A stretch of DNA of 64,000 bases, taken from assembly GCA_017478025.1 (NCBI GenBank), contig JAFVGZ010000006.1, forward strand, positions 49,416 to 113,415. Reading direction: 5' to 3'. Below the pieces are notes generated by a model. It was given only the letters and a program-made list of their open reading frames with translations, searched no databases and was not told where the DNA came from. Source of the DNA: Prevotella sp. (lineage in GTDB: Bacteria > Bacteroidota > Bacteroidia > Bacteroidales > Bacteroidaceae). A program made the position numbers and the translations under genes. Positions 48,605 to 52,733 of this stretch are shown piece after piece. How positions within the stretch are numbered: the stretch's first letter is position 1; every line of letters begins with the position of its first letter.

Positions 48605-48841
48605 TCAAATCTCTCTCATCCACCATTCGCCAGCATGGATTTCTAAATACTCAGATTCTGAATACCACGTATAGTCATGCCAATTTGTGGAGTCACCATA
48701 TTGGTTCTTCTCTGACGAATACTCGAGCCAATGTGTGGACCGCAAGATACCACCAAGGTAATGGCAATACTGTTGTTCGTTATCTGGGTCGTTTCTCAAA
48801 TTCTGGAGCATCTGGTCCGTTGTAATCCATTTCTTTTCCAT
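48605..48841 (-). CDS. Small Trp/Tyr-rich hypothetical protein (78 residues)
   Basis: MEKKWITTDQMLQNLRNDPD starts the protein at ATG 48841; an upstream non-ATG extension to 48889 is less likely. The rest is rich in Trp, Tyr, His and Glu (STHWLEYSSEKNQ, NWHDYTWYSESEYLEIHAGEWW). Not recognised. It is divergent from the DpnD-like gene and shares the GATC-rich region between them, so it might be a locus-specific regulator or cargo. Confidence 0.55.
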   Translation of the reverse strand: MEKKWITTDQMLQNLRNDPDNEQQYCHYLGGILRSTHWLEYSSEKNQYGDSTNWHDYTWYSESEYLEIHAGEWWMREI

Positions 48842-48864
48842 GTCTTTTTTCGGCAAAGGTCGGA

Positions 48865-48926
48865 GATCCATTTGGGATAACAAAATCATTTTGATCTATT
48901 TTGATCTTTTTTGTTAAGTTTTGATC
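48865..48926. promoter_or_regulatory. Cluster of four GATC sites before the restriction-modification locus
   Basis: GATC at 48865, 48893, 48903 and 48923. The last three lie in TTTTGATCTA/T repeats with starts 10 and 20 bp apart, all on the same DNA face. GATC is the recognition site of the DpnII-type enzymes encoded downstream. The cluster is 30-90 bp upstream of the -7 element at 48955. Confidence 0.8.
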
Positions 48927-48954: not shown

Positions 48955-48962
48955 TAATTTTG
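48955..48962 (+). promoter_or_regulatory. -7 element before the DpnD-like gene
   Basis: TAATTTTG fits TAnnTTTG, but it ends only 8 bp before the ATG at 48971, so the RNA would be nearly leaderless. No clear -33 element at 20 bp. Confidence 0.45.
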
Positions 48963-48970
48963 CACAGCGT

Positions 48971-49138
48971 ATGAAGAAGTACAAAATAGAAGTAAAGGAG
49001 TTGCTGAGCCGCATCGTTGAGACGGAAGCTGATAATGAAGAGGATGCCGTCGAGATGGTGAGGCAGATGTACCGAAATTGCGATATTGTTTTGGATGCTT
49101 CTGACTACATAGATACAGAAATCAGCGTGAAAAGGTGA
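48971..49138 (+). CDS. dpnD: DpnD/PcfM-like small protein
   Basis: A 55-residue protein, MKKYKIEVKELLSRIVETEA then DNEEDAVEMVRQMYRNCDIVLDASDYIDTEISV, matching the DpnD/PcfM family: the VkElLsR.ve.eA...A...v...Y....ivLd..D pattern. DpnD was named from the pneumococcal DpnI cassette; here it opens a DpnII-type locus. Function of the family is not established. Confidence 0.8.
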   Translation: MKKYKIEVKELLSRIVETEADNEEDAVEMVRQMYRNCDIVLDASDYIDTEISVKR

Positions 49139-49178: not shown

Positions 49179-49186
49179 TAACTTTG
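49179..49186 (+). promoter_or_regulatory. Promoter -7 element of the structured RNA / dpnM
   Basis: TAACTTTG, a full match to TAnnTTTG. Transcription would start near 49193. The -33 element is uncertain (TTG at 49154-49156, 22 bp away). Confidence 0.7.
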
Positions 49187-49192
49187 CATCCG

Positions 49193-49400
49193 CTTATTGC
49201 TCATGACCTGAGCGCTGGCAAGACATTGTGGAATTAGATAGTAGTATCTAAGTTTCTAAGAGGCTTTAACGAAAACAGTCCACCAAACTAACAGTAGTTA
49301 CAGAGAGTCTCTGGGGATGAGGATACGCCTATGCTGTATAGGCGTACCCCTTCCTTTCACCTCTCTGTACGGGCATCTGTGGTGGACGGCCTTCGTTAAG
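49193..49400 (+). ncRNA. Candidate structured RNA, rod-shaped (6S-like or R-M leader)
   Basis: Between the DpnD-like gene and dpnM no protein frame fits, but base pairing is extensive. Hairpins: 49197-49200 with 49218-49221 plus GCTC/GAGC; 49234-49240 with 49245-49251. Main rod: TTAACGAA (49266-49273) with TTCGTTAA (49392-49399); GTCCACCA (49278-49285) with TGGTGGAC (49380-49387); a bubble of 14 and 11 nt; ACAGAGAG (49300-49307) with CTCTCTGT (49361-49368); apical TACGCCTA (49324-49331) with TAGGCGTA (49339-49346). All four helices are perfect 8-bp matches. A rod with a central bubble behind a promoter is what 6S RNA (Bacteroidales-1 type) looks like; a regulatory leader of the methylase operon is the main alternative. 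No terminator T-run is evident at the 3' end. Confidence 0.55.
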
Positions 49401-49457
49401 TGGTGAATTGGAGGAGGGTACGCTTTCTTTTGTCCACAGCCAAATGACAAAAGAGCA

Positions 49458-50354
49458 ATGAGCATAGAGGCTAAACCATTTTTGAAGTGGGCTGGCGGTA
49501 AGGGAAAATTACTGAGTCAACTGGCTGCATATCTGCCCCAACAGGTTAAGGTCGAACCATTTACGTACATTGAACCATTCGTTGGCGGTGGTGCAATGCT
49601 ATTCTATATGTTGCAGCATTTTGGCAACATACGCAAGGCAATAATCAACGATGTCAACGAAGACTTGATTTTGACTTACAGGACTATTCGTGATGATGTG
49701 GATGCTTTGGTAAATTGTCTTTTCAAAATGGAAAGTGAATACTTGGCTATTGAAAGCCAGGAGGGCCGAAGCTCGATGTTTTACGATGTTCGTGAGCTGT
49801 ATAACCAACACTCAGGTGACGGTATAAACAGAGCGGCACAACTGATTTTTCTAAACAAGACTTGTTTCAACGGTCTTTATCGGGTAAACGGTAAGGGATT
49901 GTTCAATGTTCCTTTCGGCAGATATGCTAATCCCACTATCTGTAATGCTTCGTTGTTGAGGGCTGACAGTCGTTTATTACAACAATCCAATATCGAGATA
50001 TGTAATGGTGACTATACAGAGACGATAGCGTATGTGGAAGGGTTGACTTTTGTGTATCTTGACCCTCCGTACCGCCCATTGGATGCCACATCGAGTTTCA
50101 CGGCATACGCCAAGGGTGATTTTAACGATGACGACCAACGGCAATTGGCCGCATTTTGTCATCAACTTAATAATGCCGGATGCTATTGGATGGAAAGCAA
50201 CGCAGATTGTTCTGCGAAGAATCCTGAAGACCGCTTTTTTGAAATACTCTACAAGGATTTCTGTATTGAGCGGGTCAATGCCGTCCGCTCCATTAATGCT
50301 AACGCCAGTAAACGTGGAAAACTAACCGAACTTTTGATTAAAAACTATGAATAA
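49458..50354 (+). CDS. dpnM: DpnM/Dam-like DNA adenine methyltransferase (GATC)
   Basis: A 298-residue alpha-class N6-adenine methyltransferase. SAM motif KPFLKWAGGKGKLL and YIEPFVGGGAMLFYML; catalytic motif FVYLDPPYRPL (about 197-207). Target: GATC, inferred from the DpnII-like endonuclease that follows with an 8-bp overlap. Protects host DNA from that enzyme. Normal length for M.DpnII/Dam. Confidence 0.95.
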   Translation: MSIEAKPFLKWAGGKGKLLSQLAAYLPQQVKVEPFTYIEPFVGGGAMLFYMLQHFGNIRKAIINDVNEDLILTYRTIRDDVDALVNCLFKMESEYLAIESQEGRSSMFYDVRELYNQHSGDGINRAAQLIFLNKTCFNGLYRVNGKGLFNVPFGRYANPTICNASLLRADSRLLQQSNIEICNGDYTETIAYVEGLTFVYLDPPYRPLDATSSFTAYAKGDFNDDDQRQLAAFCHQLNNAGCYWMESNADCSAKNPEDRFFEILYKDFCIERVNAVRSINANASKRGKLTELLIKNYE

Positions 50355-51177
50355 GGATTTCAATCTTTTCATGTCTCAACTCTATGAGACGAATGCAACT
50401 CTTGATTTCTATTGCGATTTTGAGAAGATACAACAGAATGTGGAGAGTATTGCCATAAGCCTAAATACGCTCAACTATCTCATTGGGAAAGAAAACATCC
50501 AAAATGCAGTTAAACAACTATGGGATAGGGATCCAAGAGTATTCCAAGTGCTTGATATTCTTATCGCAACACGTCGTAAGGATGATAAAATGTACTTGTT
50601 GCCAGACAAAACAGCCCGGCCGATCAAAGAGTTGTATAAGACAGCTGAAGGTGTAGTTCAATTTCTGAATGAAACAGGTTTGACAAAAGTATTTCAGAAT
50701 CGTGAAATTAAGAACCTTGTGGACTATGTGTTTGGCGTTGAGACTGGACTTGACACTAATGCCAGAAAGAATAGAAGTGGTCATGTGATGGAATACTGGG
50801 TTCACGATATATTCATCAAGAACGGAGTACCATGTGAGATAGAGGTACAATGTAAAAAACTGCCTGAGATTAAGGCGGTTCTTGGTAAGGATATCAAACG
50901 ATTTGACTTTGTGGTCAGGACGAAGAAGCAGACTTATTTGATAGAGGTGAATTTCTACTCTAAAGGTGGTGGGTCAAAACCAAGTGAGGTGGCACGAGCC
51001 TATACTGAGCTATCACCAAAGATTAACGGAATAGACGGTTATAAGTTTGTCTGGATTACCGACGGTAAAGGCTGGGATGGAGTAGGATCTTTCAAAGAAG
51101 CATACGAAGAAATACCTTTTGTGTATAATCTGACAAATATACAGGATTTTATAGACTTGTTACGCTCGGAATTGTGA
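50347..51177 (+). CDS. dpnB: DpnII-like type II restriction endonuclease (GATC)
   Basis: A 276-residue endonuclease matching R.DpnII over its length: LNTLNYLIGKENIQ, DTNARKNRSGHVME, then the nuclease core KRFDFVVRTKKQTYLIEVNFYSKGGGSKPSEVARAY, in which the PD-(D/E)xK-type residues are D of RFDF and ExN of IEVN, followed by FVWITDGKGW and the terminal IPFVYNLTNIQDF. Start overlaps dpnM by 8 bp and the stop overlaps the next methylase (TGATG). Confidence 0.95.
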   Translation: MNKDFNLFMSQLYETNATLDFYCDFEKIQQNVESIAISLNTLNYLIGKENIQNAVKQLWDRDPRVFQVLDILIATRRKDDKMYLLPDKTARPIKELYKTAEGVVQFLNETGLTKVFQNREIKNLVDYVFGVETGLDTNARKNRSGHVMEYWVHDIFIKNGVPCEIEVQCKKLPEIKAVLGKDIKRFDFVVRTKKQTYLIEVNFYSKGGGSKPSEVARAYTELSPKINGIDGYKFVWITDGKGWDGVGSFKEAYEEIPFVYNLTNIQDFIDLLRSEL

Positions 51178-52487
51178 TGAAGGCTTATTATAAATCATCC
51201 AACCACGATTTTAATCTGCTTCATGGCGACACGTTTGAATTGCTGCCGCAGTTTGAGTTTAAGTTCGACATGATATTTGCTGACCCTCCATATTTTCTGT
51301 CGAGTGGTGGCATTAGCGTGCAGAGCGGTAAGGTGGTTTGTGTGGATAAGGGTGATTGGGATAGGAGTATGTCGCCTGAGGAGATAAATGAGTTTAACCT
51401 GAAGTGGCTGTCGTTGTGTCGGGAGAAGCTGAAGGATAACGGTACGATATGGATTTCGGGCACATATCACAATATCTTTTCTGTGGCGAATTGCTTGACG
51501 CAGCTGGGGTATAAGATTCTGAATGTCATCACGTGGGCAAAGACCAATCCGCCGCCGAACATATCGTGCCGGTATTTCACTTACTCTACGGAGTTTGTCA
51601 TCTGGGCGAGGAAGAAGGAGAAGGTGGCTCACTACTATAACTATGAGCTGATGAAGCACATAAATGGCGACAAGCAAATGACTGATGTGTGGCGGCTGCC
51701 AGCTATAGCTCCTTGGGAGAAGTCATGCGGCAAGCACCCTACGCAGAAGCCTTTGGGATTGCTCTCACGTATCATCATGGCATCAACGAAGCCTGGCGCA
51801 TGGATTCTTGATCCTTTTGCCGGCAGCAGTACGACAGGCATAGCTGCAAACCTGTTGGGGCGCCGGTTCCTGGGCATAGAGCGCGAAAAGGACTTTGCCG
51901 TAATGAGCAAGGCCAGACGCGAGGAAATAGAGGATGGTAAGACGTTCTCTATGTATAAGAGGAAGATTTCTGATGTCGTCAAGGCTGAGGACACGCAAAC
52001 GGATTGCTTCCTGTGTGGCGATAGTTTAATAGAGCCGCTGCCGTTTTTGGGTGAGGAGACCAGCGATGATGATGCTGTAAGCCATGCATGTAAGGATATG
52101 GAGTCAGGAGGCAAACGGCCTTTACGTATAAGATTGAAAAAGATACCAAGGATTATGGAAAGAAATGAACTTGTACCAAATCCCGAGGACCGCATCATGT
52201 GCGTGAAAGTGGGAAAGGTAAGGAGGGAGAGTCTTTATGAGATGGCACGTAAGTATTGGAAAGTGGATATTCGTCGTGTCAGAAAGGCTACTCATGTGCT
52301 TGCCATCGTGAATGGAGTTGTGGAGGAAGTCTATACGCCGATGGAGTGGAAGCATACGGAAGAGCCCAAGTACATGGGACGTTGTGAGTTTCAAGGGGTA
52401 GTAGATGAGAATTCTGACTATATAGGAAGGTCGGTAGCCTCATATTATGGGAGAAGCCAGAATCCTGTGAAGTATATCAATATGTAG
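51177..52487 (+). CDS. dpnA: DpnA-like DNA adenine methyltransferase with C-terminal extension
   Basis: A 436-residue beta-class methyltransferase. Catalytic DPPY comes first (MIFADPPYFLSSGG, about residue 35) and the SAM motif later (ILDPFAGSSTTGIAA, about 203). It resembles M.DpnA, which methylates single-stranded as well as duplex GATC and helps the system enter new hosts. DpnA is about 268 residues; here an extra 170 follow: a Cys/acidic linker (CFLCGDSLIEPLPFL), then a Lys-rich segment and a small domain ending VYTPMEWKHTEEPKYMGRCE...SQNPVKYIN. The extension resembles a domain seen in other Bacteroidota DNA-processing proteins, but I cannot name it. ATG 51177; GTG 51174 is an alternative. 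Confidence 0.9.
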   Translation: MKAYYKSSNHDFNLLHGDTFELLPQFEFKFDMIFADPPYFLSSGGISVQSGKVVCVDKGDWDRSMSPEEINEFNLKWLSLCREKLKDNGTIWISGTYHNIFSVANCLTQLGYKILNVITWAKTNPPPNISCRYFTYSTEFVIWARKKEKVAHYYNYELMKHINGDKQMTDVWRLPAIAPWEKSCGKHPTQKPLGLLSRIIMASTKPGAWILDPFAGSSTTGIAANLLGRRFLGIEREKDFAVMSKARREEIEDGKTFSMYKRKISDVVKAEDTQTDCFLCGDSLIEPLPFLGEETSDDDAVSHACKDMESGGKRPLRIRLKKIPRIMERNELVPNPEDRIMCVKVGKVRRESLYEMARKYWKVDIRRVRKATHVLAIVNGVVEEVYTPMEWKHTEEPKYMGRCEFQGVVDENSDYIGRSVASYYGRSQNPVKYINM

Positions 52488-52514: not shown

Positions 52515-52733
52515 CACAGTAGAAGAACGCCCTGGGTATAATGGCAAATAGAAATTGCGCCCTGGACTCCGAGCTTGCTCGTCTGAGCACCTATTGGAGC
52601 GCAAGAAGGGCAACAGAACAATAGGCAAAGGACTCTGCTGCCCCTACAGGGCGTGACTACACACCGCGTAAAAACCCAGGGCGCTGCCCTGGGCTATATG
52701 CTTTTGCCCTTGCAGGGCGCGCTTGCGAAAGTC
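52515..52733. repeat. Degenerate second copy of the palindromic GCCCTGGG element
   Basis: Shares AACGCCCTGGGTATA, AAAACCCAGGGCGCTGCCCTGG followed by GCTATATGCTTTTGCCC and CTGCTGCCC...ACAGGGCGT with 40730-40960, in the same order as the inner part, but the ends have diverged. It fills the gap between dpnA and pyrI. Confidence 0.75.

Follow-up and report, generated by a model that had tools for sequence, protein, structure and literature searches.

A conserved 10-bp ladder of GATC sites at the promoter of DpnII-type loci and a structured leader RNA before dpnM in Prevotella and its relatives

A row of GATC sites in front of a GATC restriction-modification locus

Why does a restriction-modification locus directed at GATC carry a closely spaced row of GATC sites in front of its own first gene? 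The question is raised by a stretch of 64,000 nucleotides of Prevotella sp. DNA (referred to as the window), in which direct reading of the sequence placed GATC starts at positions 48865, 48893, 48903 and 48923. An earlier note on this DNA had described four GATC sites within 62 bp, three of them starting 10 and 20 bp apart; the positions agreed exactly and the spacing was borne out, the repeat unit being 10 bp. Judged from comparison of related loci, this row is very probably a real control switch, and it possibly senses DNA methylation.

Counted from the first GATC of the triplet, the three sites lie at offsets of 0, 10 and 30 bp, and a GTTAA occupies offset +20. The ladder spells TTTTGATCTA TTTTGATCTT TTTTGTTAAG TTTTGATCTA, the third unit having GTTAA instead of GATC. 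On the forward strand, unit 1 is the GATC at 48893..48896, unit 2 the GATC at 48903..48906, unit 3 the GTTAA at 48913..48917 (within the GATC-free unit TTTTGTTAAG, 48909-48918) and unit 4 the GATC at 48923..48926. The remaining site (48865..48868, forward strand) belongs to the divergent promoter region and lies 28 bp upstream of the triplet and out of phase with it, a distance that recurs in relatives.

The yardstick of one GATC per 256 bp used in the earlier note proved unsuitable: GATC is depleted in the window (80 sites observed versus 285.65 expected from dinucleotide shuffles, sd 15.45), and its actual rate is one per 800 bp. In 20000 trials with 80 randomly placed sites, a cluster of four within 62 bp appeared 84 times and an exact triplet of the 10/20 or 20/10 kind 4 times. 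With 250 randomly placed sites, the corresponding numbers were 572 and 11 of 2000. Spacing is strong evidence here, and density alone is weak evidence at the rate assumed earlier. The triplet was found once in the window's own 2.93 Mb genome.

Pfam analysis gave the gene order dpnD, dpnM, dpnII and dpnA-type methylase, all on the forward strand. The first gene, dpnD (48971..49138), belongs to the DpnD-PcfM family (PF14207, 54.1 bits against a cut-off of 25) and has the -7 box TAATTTTG (48955..48962, forward strand, read from the sequence). It is followed by dpnM for a Dam-family adenine methyltransferase (49458..50354; PF02086, TIGR00571), dpnII for the endonuclease (50347..51177; PF04556, 306.8 bits) and the gene for a DpnA-type methyltransferase (51174..52487; PF01555) with ∼180 extra C-terminal residues. 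These extra residues are encoded at 51945-52487, and relatives have other extensions or none. With a Dam-family methylase, a DpnII endonuclease and a DpnA-type methylase in one operon, this is a DpnII-type locus. The claim that GATC methylases and a GATC endonuclease lie downstream of the row holds for gene content, but the first gene controlled would be dpnD rather than the methylases. A second -7-like box, TAACTTTG (49179..49186, forward strand), and a structured leader belong to dpnM itself, and a TAnnTTTG box precedes the leader in relatives too. The -7 box consensus is TAnnTTTG.

Conservation of the array at class I loci

To place the array in context, we oriented 121 loci, comprising the window, the best 80 of 577 related loci and 40 stretches with DpnII matches from 301 family genomes. 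Loci with dpnD upstream of dpnM were designated class I (31 of 121), and 2 of the 121 had no dpnM match. Among the 31 class I loci, which are counted as they stand with kinship ignored and are non-independent where related, the exact triplet was present in 29, and 28 had all three GATCs in register with the promoter. GATC occupied unit 1 in 28, unit 2 in 30 and unit 4 in all 31, and the TTAA unit was kept in every locus, none of which had GATC at unit 3. At L115 the AGATC triplet is displaced, with only units 3 and 4 in place. Across all arrays, unit 1 was found replaced by GTTC (L019, L200), GTTAA (L030) or CTTAA (L193, L195). The search for related loci without phased GATC, which the earlier note had named as a refuting test, was hereby run, and the array survived.

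This conservation does not extend to DpnII loci in general. There were 88 dpnM loci without upstream dpnD, 82 of which had at least 569 bp of upstream sequence, and 81 of these 82 lacked the triplet. At L022 the triplet stands directly before dpnM with different bases between the units, so that only the skeleton is kept. The genome of L022 (G786) has no DpnD-family match, which weakens DpnD as a candidate reader of the array. Separately, a series of 19-bp repeats alternating AGATC and AGATTAA was noticed ∼100 bp before a dpnM without dpnD (L138:2681-2752), an array-like use of GATC and TTAA.

A divergent gene for a protein of 78 residues lies on the reverse strand of the window (48605..48841), with the -7-like element GACCTTTG (48854..48861, reverse strand, read from the sequence). 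No family was found for its product, and homologues adjoin some class I loci. In 13 of 31 class I loci, a further GATC lies 27 or 28 bp upstream of the triplet (for L115, measured from its displaced triplet), and a GCAAAGGTC-like (reverse -7) element accompanies it every time; at L030 the element is present but the extra GATC is not. The suggestion that the divergent gene shares the control is plausible at these 13 loci, where the extra GATC and the divergent element keep a fixed spacing. The divergent gene itself is exchanged among loci: the 78-aa family, a 119-aa protein (L004, L016) and a 197-aa protein (L002, L115) were observed.

Arrays outside class I

We also searched 399 family genomes with the pattern TGATC-N5-TGATC-N15-TGATC, in which unit 3 was left free. 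The search returned 14 arrays, all with TTA at unit 3 and all preceding dpnD or a dpnD::dpnA fusion, one of which is decayed. A backward control pattern also matched, in 2 of 399 genomes (eight matches in G166 and three in G308). Four of the 14 arrays were class I; the other 10 (class II/III) precede a DpnD-like part joined to a dpnA-type methylase. The DpnD-like part of L169 falls short of PF14207, and the fusion gene of L171 is the decayed one. Upstream of class II/III lies either a 240-aa protein or DpnI. The former, which we read as a helix-turn-helix plus nuclease protein, has relatives in L168, L172, L174 and L175, and scanning of its L167 representative gave no Pfam or PADLOC match. DpnI was identified by PF06044 at L169 and by similarity at L173 and L176. 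Fragments of dpnM were seen upstream of the 240-aa protein or DpnI (L172, L175, L176), as if cassettes had been swapped at one GATC locus.

A count based on PF14207, which is independent of the array, gave 25 places in 24 of 301 family genomes. Fifteen of them were linked to dpnM or fused to dpnA, and these carried 12 exact arrays and three with an altered unit 1 (L193, L195, L200); the array was present in none of the other 10 places, which hold other DpnD-type genes. Among the array-less places, dpnD adjoins a restriction gene at L196 and L197 (the 240-aa helix-turn-helix type) and at L201 (DpnI); no methylase was found within the stretches fetched for these three. The array therefore tracks the methylase rather than DpnD or the nuclease. 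The DpnA-type gene was the only gene common to all 45 tabulated array loci, including one decayed copy.

At wider range, a search of 393 genomes of the order at large found the array in the window's genome (G000) only; two further matches lay inside coding sequence and were read as chance rather than as real arrays. A single viral match (L166) lay inside an open reading frame, and the idea of the array being carried on phages was set aside as this match was also read as chance.

One candidate for the reader is a methyltransferase of the DpnA or DpnM type, which would act as an autoregulator by binding the array of its own target sites. M.SsoII-like enzymes are reported to autoregulate through a separate domain. 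A DpnA-type gene at 31 of 31 class I loci, at L022 and at 13 of 13 class II/III loci (one decayed) agrees with such a role, as does the lack of an array where a methylase-less dpnD stands beside a restriction gene. However, loci without an array also encode these enzyme families, and unit 3 is no target of theirs. Nor does the array coincide with a particular C-terminal extension of DpnA; being variable or absent among array loci, the extension was rejected as the array reader. We consider a methyltransferase reader unlikely, although it would overlap with the preferred explanation given below, from which it differs in naming the reader.

A second alternative is an operator blind to methylation, in which a dedicated regulator would read a series of TGWTMA-like units (TGATCA, TGTTAA) at 10-bp steps and the presence of GATC would merely reflect the preference of the protein. 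A single loose motif covers the GATC units, unit 3 and the substituted forms of unit 1, and arrays persist at DpnI loci, where m6A at GATC is unlikely. The fact that all 14 pattern-found arrays lie at loci of GATC-type methylases, and that GATC is kept in the array despite its depletion across the window, argues against this alternative, which we regard as a serious but rather doubtful one.

Constraint and distance to the promoter

The class II/III set comprises 13 arrays, 10 from the pattern that requires three GATCs, which biases their GATC counts, and three from the PF14207 search; unit 3 is the only free test in the pattern-found arrays, and the PF14207 count is unbiased. With this reservation, GATC was present at unit 1 in 10 of 13 and at units 2 and 4 in 13 of 13, and TTA at unit 3 in 13 of 13, with GATC there in none. 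Between class I and class II/III, mean identity was 0.93 in the GATC columns and 1.0 in the TTA columns; it fell to 0.43 for the remaining columns of the array and to 0.31 to 0.40 beyond it. A chance or inherited AT-rich repeat without function would be favored by the relatedness of the loci, as the counts ignore kinship. Nevertheless, flanks that agree at 31-40% between classes next to GATC columns at 93%, together with the preservation of nothing but the skeleton at L022, make such an origin extremely improbable.

The array is also tied to the promoter. Unit 4 begins 32 bp before the -7 box (TAnnTTTG or a relaxed form) in 40 of 45 arrays, as it does in the window, and the earlier proposal that the GATC layout is a control element is supported by this fixed distance. 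No consistent -33 motif was found; the best candidate, NTTG ending 22 bp before the box, occurred in 10 of 31 class I loci and 0 of 14 others, and class I promoters may have a weak -33 element of this kind. In 8 of 13 class II/III arrays an additional GATC is located at +27, directly before the -7 box. Cognate GATC sites thus stand in the promoter region of the system's own genes beyond class I as well, before dpnM at L022 and before dpnD::dpnA in class II/III.

The region just upstream of a promoter is where DNA bends and contacts with the alpha C-terminal domains of RNA polymerase act. A direct effect on the polymerase has to be considered, in which phased T- or A-tracts would bend DNA or bind these domains, with GATC methylation tuning the effect and no dedicated protein involved. 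Such an effect fits the 10-bp units, which closely precede a promoter lacking a consistent -33 element. The composition of the tracts, however, switches from T-rich in class I to A-rich in class II/III with GATC and TTA unchanged, and we find this explanation improbable.

Proposed mechanism and comparison with known systems

We regard a protein-bound operator as the best account of the array, given that the ladder is conserved and sits at a rigid distance from a promoter in which no -33 motif is consistent. We propose, with a probability of about one half, that the array is a promoter-coupled operator of methylase-encoding GATC loci whose occupancy is set by methylation. Four 10-bp units (GATC, GATC, GTTAA, GATC) on roughly one face of the helix would form the operator of the dpnD promoter, and a multimeric protein would bind them side by side and act on RNA polymerase. 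Because the promoter has no consistent -33 motif, an activator seems likelier than a repressor. N6-adenine methylation would alter binding, since GATC, the sequence targeted by the system's own methylases, makes up three of the four units, and the association of the array with GATC methylase genes likewise suggests methylation sensing. Transcription of dpnD and of the fused or linked methylase would then vary with the methylation of the cell's DNA. At loci with the divergent gene, the fourth GATC beside its -7-like element would bring that gene under the same control.

Two observations speak against methylation sensing. Unit 3 is not GATC yet is equally conserved, and unit 1 is replaceable, which indicates that the presumed reader tolerates non-GATC units. 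In addition, at L169, L173 and L176 the array leads a dpnD::dpnA gene with an intact DPPY motif next to DpnI, which cuts Gm6ATC, and full N6 methylation should be harmful there.

Control of restriction-modification by promoter methylation is established for CfrBI, AhdI and LlaDII, according to excerpts of two articles (PMC12707154; PMC3874152), and the excerpted part of a review calls such control logical and apparently rarely used (PMC12707154). The present locus resembles these systems in having the cognate site in the promoter region of its own genes, and the divergent promoters of CfrBI have a counterpart at 13 of 31 class I loci, where a -7-like element points in the divergent direction. 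It differs from them in that three GATCs form a 10-bp ladder with a fixed non-GATC unit, with one -7 box distance at many loci of one family and dpnD as first gene. C-protein systems similarly have a repeated operator adjoining the promoter of a small leading gene. In contrast to them, the operator here contains the target site, and Pfam and NCBIfam scans of DpnD and the divergent protein revealed no DNA-binding or helix-turn-helix controller family.

SeqA-bound GATC pairs and Dam-dependent pap-type switches involve multiple GATCs that lie ahead of a promoter on the same side of the helix. The array shares this alignment and differs in standing at restriction loci; SeqA (PF03925) had 0 matches in the window's genome, which is 84.68% complete. 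In Streptococcus mutans, DpnII methylation acts on the purC promoter, as stated in an excerpt of PMC12542736; the likeness is DpnII-type GATC methylation at a promoter, and the difference, as far as that excerpt goes, is a single site at an unrelated gene rather than at the system's own promoter. Literature searches, which covered articles in part, returned no description of a GATC array. The three-site ladder would be a new form of an already known type of promoter methylation control. Its conserved version would offer a natural and easily mutated model for a restriction system that would read its own methylation, and, if read in this way, the array could explain the safe start of such loci in a new cell.

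A structured leader RNA before dpnM

The leader of dpnM (49187..49457, forward strand; model core 49258-49432) represents a second finding, possibly more novel than the array, and is identified by its fold, covariation and model match. The fold of 49187-49480 (294 nt, reaching into dpnM) had a z score of -4.91 against shuffles. Rfam gave no match over the leader at E up to 1, and none over the RNA in nine loci with relatives. A 5' segment (49192..49202, forward strand) is complementary to the dpnM start region (49453-49463). Pairing of at least 8 bp between the 5' segment and the start codon region, wobbles allowed, is possible in 25 of 31 class I leaders; those outside this count are L004, L024, L027 and L030, plus L002 and L026, which were mis-cut and hence undercounted. 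Shuffled 5' segments reached such pairing in 0 to 9 of 200 cases, and the two sides change together (GAGCAATGAGC, GATGAGTA and AAGATGAAC types).

A covariance model was built from 31 + 5 sequences. In 49 aligned rows, 36 of which are model-building sequences in an alignment fitted to the model, 96.0% of pair cells were standard and both sides changed in 26 of 36 pairs, a level reached by 0 of 500 shuffles. Sliding of the pairing partner reduced pairing to 30-47%. Outside the model, matching arm types (GAGAC/GTCTC, GGTTC/GAACC, TGAGGTC/GACCTCG) suggest that the leader RNA is probably pseudoknotted. When each row was compared with 300 shuffles of its own, 32 of 49 exceeded 95% of them and 17 fell short. 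Other arms were picked in L024, L126, L221 and L243. The existence of the leader RNA family is well supported.

Distribution of the leader RNA and linked genes

A DNA search of 301 family genomes revealed six weaker relatives of the leader outside class I. With the covariance model, at least 24 sense places were identified in at least 22 of 291 genomes, which are lower bounds because of strict filters (a third copy in the window's genome was missed); six further rows were antisense echoes. Five of the 24 RNA places precede dpnM. Family searches showed that elsewhere the RNA precedes genes for a Type ISP enzyme (L218), EptA-like transferases (L220, L235), an acyltransferase (L221), a lipid A acyltransferase (L234), BrxP (L239, L242, L246), a Type III methylase (L240), an HKD/Snf2 protein (L241) and SspB/DUF4007 (L244); no family was found for the gene behind the RNA at L222. 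By reading only, L219 resembles L218, L236 and L237 resemble L235, L238 resembles L246, L243 resembles DndC and L247 resembles L244. The RNA match at L245 is weak, and L223, a relative from the DNA search, precedes dndC (PADLOC). Defence genes (BREX, Ssp, Dnd, Type III, Type ISP and HKD/Snf2) and genes for lipid A modification are both represented behind the RNA. The window's own genome has three copies of the RNA, before dpnM, a DUF4007-like gene and a Type III methylase-like gene, the last two assigned by reading. Searches of plasmids, phages and viral contigs, including one with an exact 19-mer, did not find the leader RNA, and literature searches of titles and the openings of abstracts returned no such leader RNA.

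A set of 46 loci, made up of class II/III array loci, L022 and DpnII loci without upstream dpnD, gave a single RNA match, at L006, a locus truncated by the contig end and class I by reading. The array and the RNA are therefore separable.

A broader picture may be drawn, tentatively and with less confidence than the operator itself, in which the locus would be gated twice: by a GATC ladder whose count of own-target methylation sets promoter activity, and by a leader RNA family through which phage-defence operons and lipid A or surface-modifying genes of Prevotella-type bacteria would share one gate on translation. We infer both the gating role of the RNA and the counting of methylation. A shared leader RNA, if truly a common gate, would provide one handle on many defence systems at once.

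Two minor observations were also made. An Acido-Lenti-1-like RNA match lies at 52675-52719 of the window (33 bits against the curated 37). By reading, some RNA members (among L218-L223, L234-L247 and L254) carry a second copy of the P1 5' strand GTCCGACCA immediately ahead of the start codon, and such a repeated strand would allow an alternative pairing that masks the start.
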